From: Acinetobacter colistiniresistens | GTDB lineage: Bacteria; Pseudomonadota; Gammaproteobacteria; Pseudomonadales; Moraxellaceae | Length of the DNA stretch: 64,000 nucleotides | Direction: 5' to 3' | Assembly: GCF_000413935.1 (NCBI RefSeq) | Contig: NZ_KE340380.1 | Span: 620,001 to 684,000 of the forward strand | Shown here: one piece after another, positions 12,758 to 24,269 of the stretch | Layout of the letters: the number at the start of each line of letters is the position of its first letter | Numbering within the stretch: position 1 is the first letter of the stretch | The notes under the pieces: model-generated | Seen by the model: the letters and a program-made list of their open reading frames with translations, nothing else | What the model was told of the DNA's origin: nothing | The model's database searches: none | Position numbers and translations under genes: made by a program

Positions 12758-14341
12758 TTATTGAATTTGATAACATTGTTTAAGCTTCAAATAATCATAA
12801 TAAAAACTGTTATTGCTATAACGTGCATAGTTACAACTCGACTTAAACAAGGTTTCTTTCTCGTTATAGAACATTTTCAGCAAGGTTGTGCCTTGCTTAT
12901 CTTGATAAATATCCCACTGTAGATTTGCTGCCATCGGTGACACCATCTCCCCACGCCAAGCGCTGGTGTTATAGCTATAAGTTTGACGTAACGGTAAAGG
13001 CTGCATCATGTTATGCAACTCTAAACTGGTCGCCAAAGGAATAATGATTTCAGCATGGGCAAAACGTAATACTGCACGATGTGGCTGCTGTTTACCCACA
13101 ATCGCATCGACCTGTTTAAATAAGTCCTGTTTTAAACCTTGGGCAATTGCACTGGTGACATTCTTCGATTCGGTAAAACTTGGGCCTTTGCTGTAAAAAT
13201 CATTGGCATCGTTAAATTCAGCATAGAACTTTGCTGCATCTACAGGCATATACTGATCAAAATCAGTCCCTTTCAGCTCAGTTTTCATGCCGCCTGAAAT
13301 TGAATATAACTCATAGATATAAGCCGCCGCATCCACAGCACTGGCAATACTATTTTTACCCTTACCTTTTTCAGTGATGGTTTCACCTTTTGGTGAAGTG
13401 ACGCTATATGAACCGGTATTGCTAAATACATAGCCTGTGGTTCCCAACTTTTGAATAAACTCTGCTTTGAACAGTGGACTTAATACGCTCTTTGCCACTT
13501 GTTCAGCACGACTATTTTTCGCAAGCTCATTTAACTTATTGACCAGATCTGCATCCTCTTCTTCAAAATGCTGATAGGCTTGGCTGGCATCGTAAATCGC
13601 CTGTTGTTGCGCCGATAAAGGTTGTACTAGATCTTGCTCTTTGTTCAAACTATGAAAATAGAGTTTAAAACGATCAACGCCGCCATCTTCAATTGATGGC
13701 ACACTGCTACTGGCTAAGCTGGTGTAGGAGACTGGGGTGATGTGTGTCTTTAATTGTGGCTGCTGTTGAATCAATTCAGCCGTAAAAAACTTGGCGCTAT
13801 CTACAGCACGGTCTACACCTGAGCTTTGTACTAAAATTGATGATGATTGCTGTGCTGCACTTTGAAACAAAGTTGGAAGCCGTTGCAATAAACGATCGGC
13901 AATACCGCGATGCTCCTGAATACCTTGCATGCTTTCATTACCATAGCCAAACTGACGGATGCCATCTACACCATAACCGAGAAGAATATTAGCCTTCATC
14001 ATGCTTTCCAAATCTGCCCCCAGCTTTTCGCCTAAAGGGGTAAGCGCATTTTCAGCTTTGGCCTGTTTCCACAGGTTATACAACGCTAAATCATATTTGA
14101 TGCTGGATAAGCCGCGAGAACCATGACGAGCAACCAATTCAGTAAATACTGGCTGAAACCCTTGCGGAATGGCTTCATATTTTTTTAGATCTTGTTGCGG
14201 CTGGTATGGAGTTTTAGTCTGATAATATTTTGATGCAGTACTCGTTTCTGGCGGATTTTGCGATTCTATGTGATCGTCATTATTACATGCCGCCAATACA
14301 ATGCTCGCGCATAACACACTGCTTTTCAATAATATATTCAT
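12758..14341 (-). CDS. Histidine-type acid phosphatase, lipoprotein
   Basis: 527 residues. The N-terminus has a lipoprotein signal with lipobox LAAC (Cys near residue 19), so the enzyme is probably anchored in the envelope. The catalytic phosphate pocket ELVARHGSRG (RHGxR) is near residue 71, and the distal proton-donor motif is HAE (RFAHAEIIIPL, around residue 430), as in MINPP-like multiple inositol polyphosphate phosphatases, instead of the HD of classical phytases. The substrate is not known from sequence. It sits between cobC and cobS on the same strand. A role in B12 salvage such as dephosphorylating nucleotides or alpha-ribazole phosphate outside the cytoplasm is conceivable but unsupported. 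Confidence 0.85.
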   Translation of the reverse strand: MNILLKSSVLCASIVLAACNNDDHIESQNPPETSTASKYYQTKTPYQPQQDLKKYEAIPQGFQPVFTELVARHGSRGLSSIKYDLALYNLWKQAKAENALTPLGEKLGADLESMMKANILLGYGVDGIRQFGYGNESMQGIQEHRGIADRLLQRLPTLFQSAAQQSSSILVQSSGVDRAVDSAKFFTAELIQQQPQLKTHITPVSYTSLASSSVPSIEDGGVDRFKLYFHSLNKEQDLVQPLSAQQQAIYDASQAYQHFEEEDADLVNKLNELAKNSRAEQVAKSVLSPLFKAEFIQKLGTTGYVFSNTGSYSVTSPKGETITEKGKGKNSIASAVDAAAYIYELYSISGGMKTELKGTDFDQYMPVDAAKFYAEFNDANDFYSKGPSFTESKNVTSAIAQGLKQDLFKQVDAIVGKQQPHRAVLRFAHAEIIIPLATSLELHNMMQPLPLRQTYSYNTSAWRGEMVSPMAANLQWDIYQDKQGTTLLKMFYNEKETLFKSSCNYARYSNNSFYYDYLKLKQCYQIQ

Positions 14342-17295: not shown

Positions 17296-17344
17296 CAAAC
17301 ATAAACCTGTTTAGAAGTTAAGATTCTTCCCCAATCATGGGCAT

Positions 17345-17944
17345 TTAAGCTGTCTGAAGTTTCAGTTCATCTAACTGTGACAAGAATGCTTCATGATTTA
17401 GTTCTGCCTGAATCCCTTGATAGAGCTGGTTTAATAAGGCTTTCTTCTGGCTTTCAGTAATATCCATATGTTCAATATTGGTCTGTACATGTTTTACAAT
17501 TTTAATCTCGCCCAACTCAAGCATTTTCAAGGCATAGACATAACCATAAATTGCGCCTTGCATTAACTTTTGATAAGGAAGCTGTTGTTGCACATGGCCT
17601 TCTAAACTGCCTAACACCCGCTCGCTTAGATTGAGTTTTCTGAGTGGATCACGAGCCACGCGCTCGCAGGGATCTTTATAGGCAGATCGACAAGAATGCA
17701 GGAAACTGTCCGCCATACGATCCAGTTCTTTGGCTTGGTTGGGAATCATATTGGCTAGGCCCAATTTAACTTCGTTGACCACCTGTTCTGCATATTTCAT
17801 GATCTTTGGATCCGCCATGGCAATACCAATGGTGTCATGTCCAAGTGCACTGGCATACCACGCCAGCATGGCATGACAACCATTCCATAAGCGATTCTTA
17901 ATGATTTGAATCTCAGAAATCTGATCGACTAAAATCATTTGGCG
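17345..17944 (-). pseudogene. mtlD: mtlD, C-terminal fragment (after IS insertion)
   Basis: This is the separated 3' part of the mannitol-1-phosphate dehydrogenase domain: 199 residues plus stop, equivalent to residues 509-707 of the uninterrupted protein. It holds the catalytic motif of polyol-specific long-chain dehydrogenases, K-x4-N-x2-H, seen as KNRLWNGCH (residues 524-532 in the restored numbering). An open frame beginning at 17983 inside the IS end could in theory be translated, but it would lack the NAD-binding half. Joining this piece to the upstream fragment after removing the IS and one target copy restores one frame of 707 residues, so the break is recent and clean. Confidence 0.88.
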
Positions 17945-17953
17945 CATTTTACT
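17945..17953. repeat. Target-site duplication, left copy
   Basis: CATTTTACT lies directly beside the IS terminal repeat and is identical to the copy at 18993-19001. Nine base pairs is the length made by IS903-group IS5 elements. Confidence 0.95.
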
Positions 17954-18992
17954 GGCTTTGTTGCACAAAGATTTGAAATGCAAAGCGCCCCTAATTGAGC
18001 CAAATTTAAGGCGTAACTTGGGTAAGTGGTCGACCTAATTCCGTAAATCTGTTAAGGACTGCTACACGTGCATGGATCTCATTCACTTGGCTATCAAAAC
18101 TCCTTGCACTGAGTTTATCGCCTAATAATTTGATGCAATGCATCTTAGTTTCAACCAAACTTCGACGATGATAGCCTGACCATTTTTTCCATAGTGTCCT
18201 GCCTAAACGTTTAATTGTTCTAAGTAATTCATTTCGCTCTAGCGAGCTACTCTTTGTATCTTTCCATGGTTTCGCATTTTTTCTAGGTGGAATCACCGCA
18301 TGCGCTTGCCGATCTGCAATGACCTGACGGCATTGCTTGGTGTCATAAGCTCCATCGGTATAAACACAGTTAATCTGCTCATCTTGTGGAATCTGATTAA
18401 GTAAATCACCAAGCACCTGTGAATCACTGACATTATTGGTTGTAAGCTGAACTGCTCGTATTTGTAGGGTTTTAGCATCTATACCAATATGAAGTTTACG
18501 CCATTGGCGACGATATTCAGGTCCATGTTTCTTGCATTTCCATTCGCCCTCACCTAGAAACTTCATGCCTGTAGAGTCCATGAGTAGATGCAGCCCATCG
18601 CTACTTTTTTGGTAGCTGATTACAATATCAATATGCTTTTGTCTTCTACAAAGCGTGGTGTAATCTGGAGCTATCCAATTTAATCCGCAAAGTTTAATCA
18701 GACTTTGCACAAAGCCAGTGACCATACGTAAAGACAGACGGAATAAGGATTTAATCATTAAGCAGCATTGGATGGCTGCGTCGGAGTAGGTTTGATTTCG
18801 CCCTTGTTTGCCTTTTGATGGCGCATACCATTGCGTAGCAGGATCAAACCAAATGGCAATATTTCCGCGACTCATGAGTGCTCGGTTATATGCGGACCAA
18901 TTGGTTGTGCGGTAGATTTTGTGTGTAGGCTTCTTCATTTGAAAATTATATCGCTGAAAAACCCTTTACAGATAGGTTTGTGCAACAAAGCC
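17954..18992. mobile_element. IS5-family (IS903 group) insertion sequence inside mtlD
   Basis: The element is 1039 bp and complete. Its ends are identical inverted repeats of 16 bp (GGCTTTGTTGCACAAA at the left, its complement at the right), flanked by a 9-bp direct duplication. It holds one transposase gene. Size, ends and target duplication fit the Acinetobacter IS17/ISAba12-like elements; the exact name needs a database search. It has split mtlD at codon 508. Confidence 0.95.
18006..18938 (-). CDS. IS5-family DDE transposase
   Basis: 310 residues and apparently intact. DDE motifs are visible: first Asp in LLMDSTGMKFLGEGEW, second in CVYTDGAYDTKQ, and the DDE signature Y-x2-R-x3-E-x6-K in YHRRSLVETKMHCIK. 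The N-terminal RNQTYSDAAIQCCLMIKSLF region is typical of the IS903 group (DUF4372/transposase 11 type). It is transcribed in the same direction as mtlD. Because all catalytic residues and both ends are intact, the element should be able to move. Confidence 0.93.
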   Translation of the reverse strand: MKKPTHKIYRTTNWSAYNRALMSRGNIAIWFDPATQWYAPSKGKQGRNQTYSDAAIQCCLMIKSLFRLSLRMVTGFVQSLIKLCGLNWIAPDYTTLCRRQKHIDIVISYQKSSDGLHLLMDSTGMKFLGEGEWKCKKHGPEYRRQWRKLHIGIDAKTLQIRAVQLTTNNVSDSQVLGDLLNQIPQDEQINCVYTDGAYDTKQCRQVIADRQAHAVIPPRKNAKPWKDTKSSSLERNELLRTIKRLGRTLWKKWSGYHRRSLVETKMHCIKLLGDKLSARSFDSQVNEIHARVAVLNRFTELGRPLTQVTP

Positions 18993-19001
18993 CATTTTAC
19001 T
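18993..19001. repeat. Target-site duplication, right copy
   Basis: CATTTTACT, identical to 17945-17953; these bases belong to mtlD codons 506-508. Confidence 0.95.
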
Positions 19002-20516
19002 CAATAAGGGACTACGGTTCTCTACATAAATCGGCATATCCGTTTCACTATGGAACAGGATGAGATCCATATTCTGTAGCAATTGCCCTGTTTGAAACTG
19101 CCCACGCATATCATCTAAACAGTGTGTGATCTGCTGCTCCTGCTGTTCAGTCAGCGCAGTCTCATCTGACAACTCAATCGCTTCAGGATTCAGGTCATTT
19201 TGATATTGCTTAAACAGGTTATGCTTGATATTGAGCTGACGATATAAGGCTTGATCACTAAGCTTGGATACCATTCGATTAACCACGGTATCGCAAAAAT
19301 AATGTTCACTTAAAATATGTTCGGCAATATCCTCATCCGTCAACTCCAATAAAGCTTCATGGATGTGCTTCAAGACCAAATATTTTGCACAGACTTTATT
19401 CAGAATAATCAAAAAGGTAATCGGCTCATTATTTTGTATATCTGCTGACATAAAACGAGCCAGTAGCCCCTTGGCAATGGTTTTGGCCTCAGACTCAATC
19501 GCCTGTTCAGGTAAGCAAAGTGCAATCAGACTAGATTGCATATACATTTCTAGCATCTGTTGTTCATTATCAGCATCAATCACTGTGAGATTATCAATAC
19601 GCTCATCATAAGAAGACTGACCATATCGAATACTATAGCTGCCAAAACTATTCACGGACTCTAGGTATAGACGATTTCGAGTTGAGGCCAAAATACGTTT
19701 TGGTCGCGTATAACCATCCCAGTAGGACAATATCTGAGCCACATAACCGCCACCAATGGCACCAAAACCATGAATGCCGACGGTCAATTGATTGGAACTC
19801 TGCGGAAATAGCTCTTGTAACTGCGGCATGCCCATTTCGGGAATAAACTCATCTAAAGCATTCAAACATTCGTACATATCAGCATAATAGAACTTTGCTT
19901 TGGAGAGCATATGATCGTTGGGTTCTTTAATATCTTTAAATAAAATCGTGATTCCACCTGCATCATAGGCTGAACAAATCCCATTTTCAGAATCTTCGAA
20001 CATCAGGCACTGTTGTGGTTGTAGATTTAGTTTTTGTGCGGCTTTTAAAAAGATTTCTGGATGCGGTTTACCCTTTTCAACTTCATCCCCACAGACCAAA
20101 AGATCAAAAAATTTATAAACATTAGCATTAATGAGATATTCTTCGGCAATTGCTCGACGGCTTGAGGTCGCGACTGCCATTTTTAAGCCTGATTTTCTTA
20201 GGCGTTCTAAGACCTGAATCAATCCTTTTTTAATTGGTACACCATTGTTACGGACAAATTCTAGTTCCACTTCATCTGCACGTTTGCGAATCGCACCATA
20301 AGGAACATCTGCACCATAAAATTTTTGTGCCAGCTGCTCCGATGCTTTCGCACTTAGCCCTAGACACTGCATCAAATATTCATCTGAAAACTCCTGTCCA
20401 ATCAGCTCTTTTGATGCCTGTTTCAATGTATGGAAGCGCAAGCGCTCGGTATCAAACATTGTTCCATCCATGTCAAAAAGTGCGCCTTGAACAGGATAAT
20501 CATGAAAAATAAGCAT
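18993..20516 (-). pseudogene. mtlD: mtlD, N-terminal fragment: HAD phosphatase plus NAD-binding domain
   Basis: The original gene encodes the bifunctional mannitol-1-phosphate dehydrogenase/phosphatase known from Acinetobacter, which makes the compatible solute mannitol from fructose-6-phosphate. Residues 1-220 are a HAD hydrolase (FDMDGTMFD at 14-22, VATSSRRAI, GKPHPEIF, MFEDSENG), apparently complete. The dehydrogenase begins at about 240 with the Rossmann motif GIHGFGAIGGGY (247-258). The frame runs into the IS, adds eight foreign residues and stops at 18966. The truncated 516-residue product lacks the K-x4-N-x2-H catalytic motif, so the dehydrogenase should be dead while phosphatase activity might survive. 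Confidence 0.9.
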
Positions 20517-20684
20517 CTTTACTCCTTTTATCTATCTTGTTATGACGTTTTATAGGGTACATAAAAAGTGACGCTAAAATTCAAATCTTCAATAAATGAA
20601 ATAAATTTGATTAAAAAATAAACAACAAAGCCATGTTTCTAGGCAATATTCGACTGAAATAGTCTGAATACTTGCATTACCATG

Positions 20685-20703
20685 AAAAAGATGAGTCTTT
20701 TTT
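20685..20703 (-). terminator. Weak terminator at the end of the siderophore operon
   Basis: An AT-rich 7-bp stem (AAAAAGA / TCTTTTT) with a 4-nt loop, located 17 bp after the actD stop. The stem itself supplies the U-run. Stability is low. Confidence 0.4.
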
Positions 20704-20719
20704 AACCAAAAACTCAGCT

Positions 20720-21949
20720 TTATTCATCCAGTAATAGCGCTGCCTCACCTTCTTTTCGAATCAGTATCCAGCTAAAATACAACCCAATTGACAAGGTTAA
20801 AAACAGCAATAAATAGAATGGAAAATGGCTGCTAAAACGATATAAAAAAGTACTGAGTAAAGGACCCACAATTAAACCCAATGCTTGTGTCGCAGTACAG
20901 AAACTTGCCATTTTAACCTGCGACTGTTGTGAAACTGCTTGAGCAGCGCCCGTGGTAAATGCAGGTAATAAACATGCGACTGAAACGCCATAAAAAATAT
21001 AGCTGGTCTGAAATACCAAAATTGTAGGTGCATACAATGAAAGTAATAAGCCAAAACACATGGTGACTAAGCCAATAATCACTAAGCTATTTAATTTAAG
21101 CTGCAACACTTTCACGATTAAAAGTTGAGTGAGTAACAGACAAATGCCAACCACCAGCATGCATTGAGAGAAATACACTGCGCTCTGCTGGCTACTGAGA
21201 TAAAATTTATCCTGAATGTAAAAACCTGCTGTCATGTTTAAAGTCACGATCGCAACATAAGTCACAAAACCTAAGGCTAGCCAAATCAAGCTTTGCTTGA
21301 GAATTGGCTCCTGCTCTAAAGTGTTATTCTCTTCTTGTTTAAGCTGAGAAATATCAGACTGAATTTGTGCAGTTTTGCCAAACAGGATACTGAGCGCAAT
21401 ACTAACTAAACCCAGTAATCCCACGGCAATCCACATCGGAAAAAGTAGACCGCCGAATAATAAGACTGACGTCGCAAATGGCCCAACAATCATGCCAAAA
21501 CTATTCATTGCACCAAACATTGCCATCTGCTTACTACGATCATCTGCTTCTGCTGCATGCGTCATCACATAACTTTGCAGACCAATTTGTGGCAAAGCCA
21601 TAAAAATGCCTGTAGAAGCACGACTCAGTACCAGCAAAATAAAAATCAGTAATGTCGGTAAAATCGCTTGTGTTCCAAAATATAGAATCAAGCTGAAAAT
21701 AGCCCAAGTAAAGGTCATTCCCCAAAAACCATAATTAACGAGCTGGTTGGGAGATAGCCGACCTTTCTTTTTCGCAATCCAGATGGAGGCAATCGCCATA
21801 CAGATTGCCCCTGCTGAAACAATCACACCACCCTGAAATTCAGATAAATGGAGCTGTCGCGTCAAAGGTGCGAGTAATGGGAGAATCATGGAAAAGCAGG
21901 TGCCATTGATTAAAGCAGCCAGTGCTAAAAATTTTAAATTATTGTTCAT
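20720..21949 (-). CDS. actD: MFS transporter, probable acinetoferrin exporter ActD
   Basis: A major facilitator protein of about 409 residues with around 12 hydrophobic helices. The MFS A-like loop is IWIAKKKGRL after helix 2. As last gene after the receptor it matches actD of the published acinetoferrin order acbABCD-actBCAD, where this protein is a candidate for siderophore transport, likely export. The open frame reaches 21976, but that ATG lies inside a strong terminator hairpin; ATGs at 21952 and 21949 (MNNNLKFLALAAL) are better starts. The terminator upstream means that expression may depend on read-through or on a separate promoter. Confidence 0.75.
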   Translation of the reverse strand: MNNNLKFLALAALINGTCFSMILPLLAPLTRQLHLSEFQGGVIVSAGAICMAIASIWIAKKKGRLSPNQLVNYGFWGMTFTWAIFSLILYFGTQAILPTLLIFILLVLSRASTGIFMALPQIGLQSYVMTHAAEADDRSKQMAMFGAMNSFGMIVGPFATSVLLFGGLLFPMWIAVGLLGLVSIALSILFGKTAQIQSDISQLKQEENNTLEQEPILKQSLIWLALGFVTYVAIVTLNMTAGFYIQDKFYLSSQQSAVYFSQCMLVVGICLLLTQLLIVKVLQLKLNSLVIIGLVTMCFGLLLSLYAPTILVFQTSYIFYGVSVACLLPAFTTGAAQAVSQQSQVKMASFCTATQALGLIVGPLLSTFLYRFSSHFPFYLLLFLTLSIGLYFSWILIRKEGEAALLLDE

Positions 21950-22001: not shown

Positions 22002-24269
22002 TTAGTATTTGAGGGTATAGCTCAAACCATAAGTACGGCCTTGTGCTGGCAAGCTAGAAATATCGCCATACACCGTCGAAACTGCTTGGCTGTATACAGA
22101 CTTATAATCCGTATTCCAAACGTTATAAACACCAAAACCTAATGTTCCTGGACCAGCTTTCGTATTAGCAATCACATCCATTACGGCAAAACCTTTAATT
22201 TCTGCTGGTGGACGGCTTCCATATTCAATTGCATCTTTGCGCGCTTTGTCTGTACCGCCAATTGCCAAGGCTTGAACACGCAAACCTAGGCCATCGTTAA
22301 ATTGCCAATCTGAATAGACAGTCCCTTTTAACGGTGCAACACGGATGGCATCTAACTCTTGCCATTTACCGCTGGTATTTTTAAATTGACCACGTGTATA
22401 AGCCAAAGTACCACCGACATTCCATGCATCGGTAACAGCATACTTCACATTACCTTCTAGGCCATAAACGCGTTCATCGGTATCAATCACTTCAATTGCA
22501 AAGTTTGGCGGACCAAATTTCAAAGATTTATCCGACTTGTTATAGAACGCAGTAAGTCCTGTGGTTAAAGCATTGTCTTGTAAACGCCAACCTAGCTCAA
22601 AACTATTCACTTTAATTGGATCAATGGTTTGATTGCTTACAACAAAGTTTGCTGGAACGTCTCTGAGCATACGTTGTACGTCTGGTAAGTTTGCACCTTG
22701 AGAGAAATTGGCAAAGACTTGTTGAGCATCTGTTAAATGGTAAACTGCACCTAAGTTAAATAAAGTCGCATCATGCTTGACTGACCCACCTTTTAAAGTC
22801 TTAGGGTTATATCCTGAGACGAAATCTGCAACCATCGCTTCGGAATAAGGAACAGAATCCTTTACTTGACTATCAACTCGCTCATGGCGCACGCCAGCTT
22901 GTAGATTTAAGCGATCAGTGACTTCAAATTGGCTCTGTAAAAAGAATCCTAACTTTTCAGTATCCACATCAGGACCAAAACCATAATTATTTAAAGGCTT
23001 AAATTTCAAGCCATTACTACCAATAAAAGTATTCAAATCATAAAGTTGTGCTGTTTGCTTGCCTTTTTCTTTGTCATAATCGACACCATAAGTCAGATGT
23101 AATGCACGATCTGCAAGGTTTAATTTACTCTGTAAAGCTAATCGCGCGCCAAATACATCAATATCCGTTTCAGATTGGGTAACAATATATGTTCCCCCAC
23201 GTGGAATTGATGCATGTGCTAAATAGTTTGCACTTGGATAGAATCGACCTTTTTCAGTACGATAGTACGCTTCAGCATTTAAGGTTTGTCCAAGAAAATC
23301 TTGATTTTCATATTGTGCATTCACCGCTGCACGTTTTGTTCTTGGCTGACTATTAAGTTCCAAGCCTTTGACTGCTTTCAGGCTTGGTTTTGCACCATTA
23401 AGTAGAACTGACAATCCTTGACCGTAATCAGCGCCATAGTCACTATCTTGTTCATCATTATAATATTGTGCACCAATGCTGATGCTTTGCTTATCAGCAA
23501 ACTGCCAACCTAAGCGACCATTGACATCAATAGTTTCTGTATCTTGACGATCAGTCTGTGCGACTTCAGGCCCAATTCGATCGCCATGACTGTCTTGAAT
23601 CTCACCGCGTTTAGTATAGCTTGCTCCAAGGAAACCATTCCAGTCCCCTTGTTTAAATGCAGCAGATTGATATGCTTCATAAGCCAAGGCATCATTTTTA
23701 AAGTTATCGCCAGAAGTTACGCCAAGTTTTGATTCAAAATGAACGCCCTCTGTCGAACCTTTCTTGGTGATGATATTGATGATCCCACCTGTTGCACCTG
23801 AACCATAAATACTGCTGGCACCAGACACAACCTCTACGCGCTCAATCATATCTGGACTGATGCTATTTAACTGGCGCGAACTATCACGTGAACCCGTTTG
23901 TGGTACACCATCAATCATGTATTGAACTGTACGACCTCGCATGGTCATACCATAGTTACTGGTCGTACCAGAGCTTGGTGTTAGCGATGGAACTAACAAA
24001 CCTAAAATATCTGCTGTACTTTTACCCGCAGCCGCTTGTTTCGCAATATCTTCTTGTTCAATGCGATAAACTGTTCCCGCAATTTCAGCAATACTTTGTG
24101 CTGAACGCGATGCTGTCACTACGATGGGTGCAAGTTGTGCTGGTTTTTGACTTGTAACTGCAGCAGTGGTTTGAACAGTGGCATCTGCGTCAACCGTCTC
24201 TGCATACAATTGTGTGCTGATGGCTAAGCTGAGCAGTGTTAATGATGTCGAAAGTGAACGTACTTTCAT
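22002..24269 (-). CDS. actA: TonB-dependent ferric-acinetoferrin receptor ActA
   Basis: A 755-residue outer-membrane receptor. The signal peptide ends at QLYA-ETV; a TonB-box region APIVVTASRSAQS is followed by the plug (ADILGLLVPSLTPSSG, MTMRGR, YMIDGVPQTG, IERVEVVSGASSIYGSGATG) and a beta-barrel ending in YGLSYTLKY with a terminal aromatic residue. Its place between two MFS genes, downstream of two NIS synthetases, identifies it as the receptor for the siderophore made by this operon; ActA in A. haemolyticus occupies the same position. It starts 9 bp after actC. Expression should be iron-repressed through the shared Fur-controlled promoter. Confidence 0.85.
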   Translation of the reverse strand: MKVRSLSTSLTLLSLAISTQLYAETVDADATVQTTAAVTSQKPAQLAPIVVTASRSAQSIAEIAGTVYRIEQEDIAKQAAAGKSTADILGLLVPSLTPSSGTTSNYGMTMRGRTVQYMIDGVPQTGSRDSSRQLNSISPDMIERVEVVSGASSIYGSGATGGIINIITKKGSTEGVHFESKLGVTSGDNFKNDALAYEAYQSAAFKQGDWNGFLGASYTKRGEIQDSHGDRIGPEVAQTDRQDTETIDVNGRLGWQFADKQSISIGAQYYNDEQDSDYGADYGQGLSVLLNGAKPSLKAVKGLELNSQPRTKRAAVNAQYENQDFLGQTLNAEAYYRTEKGRFYPSANYLAHASIPRGGTYIVTQSETDIDVFGARLALQSKLNLADRALHLTYGVDYDKEKGKQTAQLYDLNTFIGSNGLKFKPLNNYGFGPDVDTEKLGFFLQSQFEVTDRLNLQAGVRHERVDSQVKDSVPYSEAMVADFVSGYNPKTLKGGSVKHDATLFNLGAVYHLTDAQQVFANFSQGANLPDVQRMLRDVPANFVVSNQTIDPIKVNSFELGWRLQDNALTTGLTAFYNKSDKSLKFGPPNFAIEVIDTDERVYGLEGNVKYAVTDAWNVGGTLAYTRGQFKNTSGKWQELDAIRVAPLKGTVYSDWQFNDGLGLRVQALAIGGTDKARKDAIEYGSRPPAEIKGFAVMDVIANTKAGPGTLGFGVYNVWNTDYKSVYSQAVSTVYGDISSLPAQGRTYGLSYTLKY

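Follow-up and report, generated by a model that had tools for sequence, protein, structure and literature searches.

Does an Acinetobacter whose mannitol gene has been cut in two by an insertion sequence (IS) still make mannitol? The question is raised by mtlD of Acinetobacter colistiniresistens, which encodes a bifunctional enzyme with an N-terminal HAD phosphatase domain and a mannitol-1-phosphate dehydrogenase. The gene lies in a window of 64,000 nucleotides (NZ_KE340380.1, positions 620,001 to 684,000), whose numbering is used throughout. We consider it highly probable that an autonomous ISAba12-type element recently inserted into the only mtlD found, splitting MtlD after residue 508 and putting an end to mannitol synthesis.

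Insertion of a complete element splits MtlD ahead of its active site

The initial annotation had described a 1039-bp element with perfect 16-bp ends and a 9-bp duplication, which interrupts an otherwise unharmed 707-codon frame at codon 508, just before the K-x4-N-x2-H motif. Each of these points was borne out (Table 1). A 9-bp match at one fixed offset is expected by chance with a probability of about 4e-6. The two mtlD pieces, which were analysed separately throughout, are both free of stops and frameshifts. The 3' piece comprises 202 residues and begins with the three duplicated codons, leaving 508 + 199 = 707 codons, the length of the intact gene in both the nearest relative and A. gyllenbergii. 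K524 of the K-x4-N-x2-H motif, which we take to be catalytic in this dehydrogenase family, is the 16th residue past the cut, on the far side of the IS.

The pieces also align end to end as one MtlD, as had been assumed. Against the NCBIfam model NF046057 (bifunc_MtlD), the 5' piece matches positions 1-502 and the 3' piece positions 501-683 of 683, with scores of 920.7 bits for the 5' piece alone (cut-off 800) and 244.5 bits for the 3' piece. The PDB chains 7ocn/7oct are matched at 3-511 and 510-691, respectively (the source organism of entries 7ocn-7ocu is presumed). The small overlap is consistent with duplication of the target, three codons. Mannitol_dh_C scores 59.1 bits (cut-off 30.7), with profile position 9 falling on residue 524, just past the cut, and the Rossmann model Mannitol_dh matches at 250-438 with 20.2 bits, under the Pfam cut-off of 27. 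The insertion point lies near the boundary at which the Rossmann part gives way to the C-terminal domain. The window MtlD is a disrupted member of NF046057: its HAD and dehydrogenase parts score over the cut-off, but its frame is not uninterrupted, since it stops 8 codons into the IS. Compared with bifunctional MtlD of A. baumannii and A. baylyi, the same domains in the same order, the same length and the K-x4-N-x2-H motif are present across the two pieces, whereas the window gene is split by the IS after codon 508 and neither piece is whole.

Table 1 Positions of the split mtlD gene and of the inserted element in the window.
Feature	Position	Strand	Basis or remark
mtlD 5' fragment, codons 1-508, with the HAD phosphatase domain and the dehydrogenase's Rossmann part	18993..20516	-	profile and structure matches
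Resulting open reading frame, 516 aa = 508 MtlD residues + 8 IS-encoded residues, then stop	18966..20516	-	
HAD phosphatase domain, ~residues 1-222	19851..20516	-	motifs DMDGT, ATSS, GKPHPEIF and FEDSENG kept; end placed from free HAD genes
mtlD 3' fragment, codons 506-707 + stop: Mannitol_dh_C, detached	17345..17953	-	profile and structure matches
K-x4-N-x2-H motif, residues 524-532	17873..17899	-	severed from the cofactor-binding part by the IS
Complete IS5-family insertion sequence, 1039 bp	17954..18992	-	perfect ends, transposase profile match; ISAba12 family by annotation of similar copies
16-bp terminal inverted repeat, right end relative to transposase	17954..17969	.	perfect reverse complement of the other arm
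16-bp terminal inverted repeat, left end relative to transposase	18977..18992	.	perfect reverse complement of the other arm
Target-site duplication, copy 1, CATTTTACT	17945..17953	.	exact 9-mer
Target-site duplication, copy 2, CATTTTACT	18993..19001	.	exact 9-mer
Intact transposase, 310 aa	18006..18938	-	NF033579 and Pfam DDE_Tnp_1

In the course of events that we propose, an autonomous ISAba12-type element would have transposed recently into the sole mtlD found and duplicated 9 bp, the insertion and the duplication being directly visible in the sequence. The 5' part, with its premature stop, still encodes the phosphatase domain; the 3' part with the K-N-H motif lies beyond the IS without a natural start of its own. 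Mannitol-1-phosphate dehydrogenase activity would thereby be lost, and no mannitol would be formed from fructose-6-phosphate. De novo osmoprotection would then rely mainly on glutamate, with import of choline and betaine as the main defence.

It is very improbable that the two halves are jointly active, with the C-terminal piece expressed from a start in the IS end and the parts associating. An open reading frame (ORF) of 212 codons, whose TTG start is located in the end of the IS, does span this piece, read-through transcripts may cover it because the transposase reads in the same direction, and the cut near the domain border would suit an association of this kind. However, 17300-20900 contains no more promoter-like sites than shuffled sequence does (6 vs 10.4 expected; one on the minus strand inside the IS), and a promoter in the IS driving the 3' piece was dropped as a candidate for that reason. 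Moreover, the active site lies between the parts, so that unlinked halves would have to reassemble it.

The element is of ISAba12 type and common in the genus

The transposase matches NF033579 (transpos_IS5_2) with 410.5 bits (cut-off 140) at positions 1-289 of 289, that is, as an IS5-type DDE transposase over the whole profile length, which places the element in the IS5 family. ISAba12 itself presumably belongs to the IS903 group. In the excerpt of PMC6382973 (with its Table 2), ISAba12 has 1039 bp, GGCTTTGTTGCACAAA at both ends, a 9-bp duplication and a single transposase ORF, and the window element agrees in all four respects, as compared with this published description and not with the type sequence. 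According to the same excerpt, ISAba13, ISAlw1, ISAha1 and ISAha2 share the ends of ISAba12; the name given here therefore rests on the annotation of similar copies, not on the ISfinder type sequence.

Matches to the element were found in 553 plasmid records, 552 of them from Acinetobacter; in 487 of the 553 a single location contains 80% or more of the element, and 50 reach at least 99% identity. The best match, with 100% identity along the full element, is to a plasmid of A. baumannii. Among the 25 plasmid matches listed, 16 are annotated as ISAba12 family, eight only as IS5 family or transposase, and one has no feature. We also surveyed a comparison set of 175 Acinetobacter species (one genome per species; E ≤ 1e-200, two candidates scored per genome), of which 105 gave a match. 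Because of these matches and the near-exclusive occurrence on Acinetobacter plasmids, the IS is, judged by its distribution, a common property of the genus.

The window genome carries a second full copy elsewhere, 100% identical to the first (G000:C8:117419-118457; L037:3420-4458). This copy lacks a matching duplication, and long ORFs on either side continue into it, a pattern suggestive of a deletion or rearrangement linked to the IS; the right flank of this copy had no match in six relatives in a search run without a positive control. A 70-bp relic with 79% identity to one IS end is located at G000:C7:138129-138198 (L038).

Intact relatives point to a young insertion

The nearest relative (G120) served as a control for the uninterrupted state. 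Its identity to the window strain is 97% over the N-terminal piece and its DNA is collinear on both sides. Its mtlD runs through all codons without interruption and contains the 9-mer CATTTTACT once, at the same codons. Seven intact relatives, compared with one another in 21 pairs, give dN/dS values of 0.018-0.074; the corresponding values between the window and G120 are 0.057 (N piece) and 0.071 (C piece), so that by this measure the pieces remain as conserved as genes.

It is possible, if rather unlikely, that the insertion is not fixed but a strain- or passage-specific polymorphism, with sister strains or part of the cells making mannitol, a situation compatible with the knock-out as read for the sequenced form. 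The element, the duplication and both halves are undecayed and the two IS copies are identical, as expected under such a polymorphism, but the assembly has the interrupted form alone, and precise excision of such IS elements is generally rare. A further argument for polymorphism comes from A. baumannii ATCC 17978 strains in which, according to the excerpt of PMC6382973, ISAba12 has inserted into hns; there the same kind of element inactivates a chromosomal gene, with a different target and a different consequence.

Several observations weigh against a recent insertion that ended mannitol synthesis. The youth of the insertion is judged in relative terms, by its state of preservation. As the analysis is based on the assembly and on one genome per species, an uninterrupted gene may exist in sister isolates or in a mixed population. 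After six unpolarisable amino-acid sites had been dropped, seven amino-acid and 12 silent changes were assigned to the window lineage and 3 + 12 to G120 (Fisher p 0.45), which leaves relaxed selection since the insertion unsupported overall; six of the seven changed amino-acid sites are variable across 70 other Acinetobacter MtlDs, and only Q29 is nearly fixed (66/70). In the C piece alone, the counts are 2 + 0 for the window and 0 + 5 for G120, small numbers that hint at relaxed constraint. A second Mannitol_dh_C domain was not found in the window genome, two short matches (E 0.1 and 0.4) being taken as chance, although mannitol-forming families unrelated to this one were not searched for. 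Finally, an A. baylyi mtlD mutant is described in the excerpt of PMC6291793 as only marginally affected by salt, so the growth effect in the window strain may be small. Because the search brought up no other mannitol dehydrogenase of this family, the best reading is a predicted loss of mannitol synthesis.

A recombination breakpoint at the IS, prompted by the different identities of the two pieces to G120 (98.5% for the C piece vs 94.9% for the N piece), was rejected. In steps of 300 bases, identity is 0.91-0.99 on the left side and 0.97-0.98 over 20100-21900 on the right side, and the lower patch (0.89-0.96, ~19200-20100) does not begin at the IS. Further to the right, an ORF at 22002-24269 (-), which we take to be TonB-receptor-like, shows only 62-79% identity to G120 at 22200-24000 and 85-94% to A. 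proteolyticus, within outer DNA that is 95-99% identical to G120 on both sides. This receptor-like gene near mtlD looks like an exchanged allele.

Other routes of osmoprotection in the genome

The role in salt tolerance that the initial annotation had assigned to the enzyme is published for A. baumannii. In the excerpt of PMC6291793, mtlD is described as ubiquitous in that species, and its deletion in strain ATCC 19606 abolished mannitol and left almost no growth at 500 mM NaCl, which was rescued by 1 mM betaine.

OtsA was not found in the window genome by a search that exceeded its cut-off in 74 of the 175 species (otsB was not searched for), nor was any protein of the alpha-amylase clan (PF00128), which presumably comprises TreS, TreY and TreZ. 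With these trehalose enzymes also missing from the search results, glutamate should carry most of the de novo osmoprotection. In contrast, betA and four BCCT transporter genes are present. Thirteen species, G120 among them, have an MtlD that shares 91% identity or more with the G120 protein; only one of these, G142, has otsA, so that a lack of OtsA is normal for the clade and not a loss in the window strain. Across the genus, mtlD and otsA showed no link: otsA occurs in 46 of the 99 species with mtlD (98 with a single frame plus G005, where the gene is split by contig ends) vs 28 of the 76 others (Fisher p 0.22, uncorrected for kinship).

The excerpt of PMC6528591 reports that an A. baumannii ATCC 19606 mtlD-otsB double mutant had glutamate as its sole solute and grew poorly in salt, with unimpaired desiccation survival. 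The window strain has the same predicted genotype, with neither MtlD nor a trehalose-6-phosphate route. It differs from the published mutant in that the case is natural and in another species, that OtsA rather than OtsB is the enzyme not found, and that its phenotype is predicted from genes alone. By analogy, the strain should be salt-sensitive without choline or betaine and near normal with them, and it probably depends on glutamate and imported betaine under salt. The suggestion that it lacks mannitol or makes less of it thus holds up in so far as no second enzyme of the family was found; the accompanying salt phenotype became a conditional one, given the betaine rescue, the weak effect in A. 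baylyi and the betaine-related genes present here.

mtlD is broken in different ways across Acinetobacter

At a threshold of E ≤ 1e-18, 103 of the 175 species have an MtlD match, and 98 of these genes are full-length in one frame. The other five are G005, the window genome with its IS, G004 with a frameshift, and G079 and G154, which hold the HAD domain only. Among the 72 species without a match at this threshold, G134 has a 79-residue relic. By coordinates, the G004 gene is that of A. pittii (L103), with the frameshift near codon 423. In a set of 80 MtlD loci from named genomes, the frame used breaks off within the dehydrogenase part in two, A. pittii L103 and A. tandoii L090; another locus, L111, is truncated at its beginning by the end of the contig. 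The A. tandoii gene at L090 stops after 529 codons, at the same motif as in the window but without the window's IS. Two genomes, G009 and G108 (the latter, by coordinates, being A. tandoii L090), have an intact mtlD plus a broken second copy.

Taken from these sequences, the survey shows mtlD to be expendable across the genus and broken differently in different species. Its patchy presence was already known (254 of 312 strains in the excerpt of PMC10149724). A search of the open-access literature found no report of an IS-disrupted mtlD in Acinetobacter; most subscription papers lay outside this search.

In G009, the second copy (L121:2111-2611, -) is cut after ~136-163 codons. The interrupting element has two transposase-like ORFs that overlap, and we assume it to be IS3-like; this copy would be another IS hit in mtlD. 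A full-length mtlD is carried by the A. portensis plasmid pJNE5-64k (L092). Because its first 230 residues are identical to the truncated second copy of A. tandoii (L090), mtlD probably moves between species.

Free MtlD-type HAD genes and the fate of the stump

As the initial annotation had noted, the N-terminal HAD phosphatase is left whole, with all its motifs (Table 1). The proposed leftover, a free phosphatase domain, does not describe the window product, which is a 516-residue stump; free MtlD-type HAD genes do occur in two other species. The gene of G079 (L120:3754-4425, +) has a GTG start and 224 codons, and that of G154 (L134:3889-4554, -), near a contig end, has 222; both frames are intact. 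Both contain the DMDGT, ATSS, GKPxPEIF and EDSxNG motifs and have NF046057 as their best family, matched at 1-220 of 683. No further MtlD match was found in either genome at E ≤ 1e-18. The G079 gene lies among homologues of eight window mtlD neighbours, seven of which are in the same order, with the homologue of ORF 12758-14341 relocated beside the HAD gene. Around the G154 gene, none of the eight was found in the 4.8 kb examined.

Quick trees were computed for these genes. They fell among the Acinetobacter MtlDs, on branches of 2.1 (G079) and 0.64 (G154) vs a median of 0.019. Omitting G079 leaves G154 in the same set (98% SH-aLRT); omitting G154 shifts G079 elsewhere within Acinetobacter, so that the placement of G079 is unsure. 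An ancestral state of the free genes was rejected: the outgroup MtlDs (Pseudomonas, Pantoea, Ideonella, Hydrogenophaga) are fused and both HAD genes fall among Acinetobacter MtlDs, which argues for secondary loss of the dehydrogenase. The simplest reading of the trees is that the dehydrogenase was lost and the phosphatase that was kept then evolved fast. Going by titles and abstract starts, none of the papers listed in a search of the open-access literature is on a free MtlD-type phosphatase.

By analogy, the two genes may serve as a precedent for a leftover phosphatase but prove nothing about the window gene, which is broken at residue 508 rather than around residue 220, the HAD border. We consider it improbable that the stump is retained as an active phosphatase of sugar or polyol phosphates, the gene then being a free phosphatase in the making rather than a dead pseudogene. 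The intact HAD motifs speak for such retention, as do the free genes of ~222-224 codons ending at NF046057 position 220, that of G079 at an mtlD-type neighbourhood, and with a cut near the Rossmann/C-terminal border, the stump may fold. Against it, ~290 residues past the HAD domain remain, and the surface against which the C-terminal domain normally packs would be exposed; the insertion also looks too recent for selection to be read, the G154 gene is at another locus and the tree position of G079 is unsure. The stump is most probably without function, with residual phosphatase activity possible. A wider version, in which Acinetobacter MtlD has repeatedly been cut back to its phosphatase (by IS, deletion or truncation), with the HAD half living on with a new substrate in G079 and G154 and the window strain as a very young case, is similarly doubtful in our view.

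Implications

On its own, the window case is an ordinary IS knock-out. The pair of free MtlD-type HAD genes in G079 and G154 is the more unusual lead. What the knock-out predicts is a natural Acinetobacter that would make neither mannitol nor trehalose, the counterpart of the published laboratory double mutant, and this prediction is testable by solute measurement.
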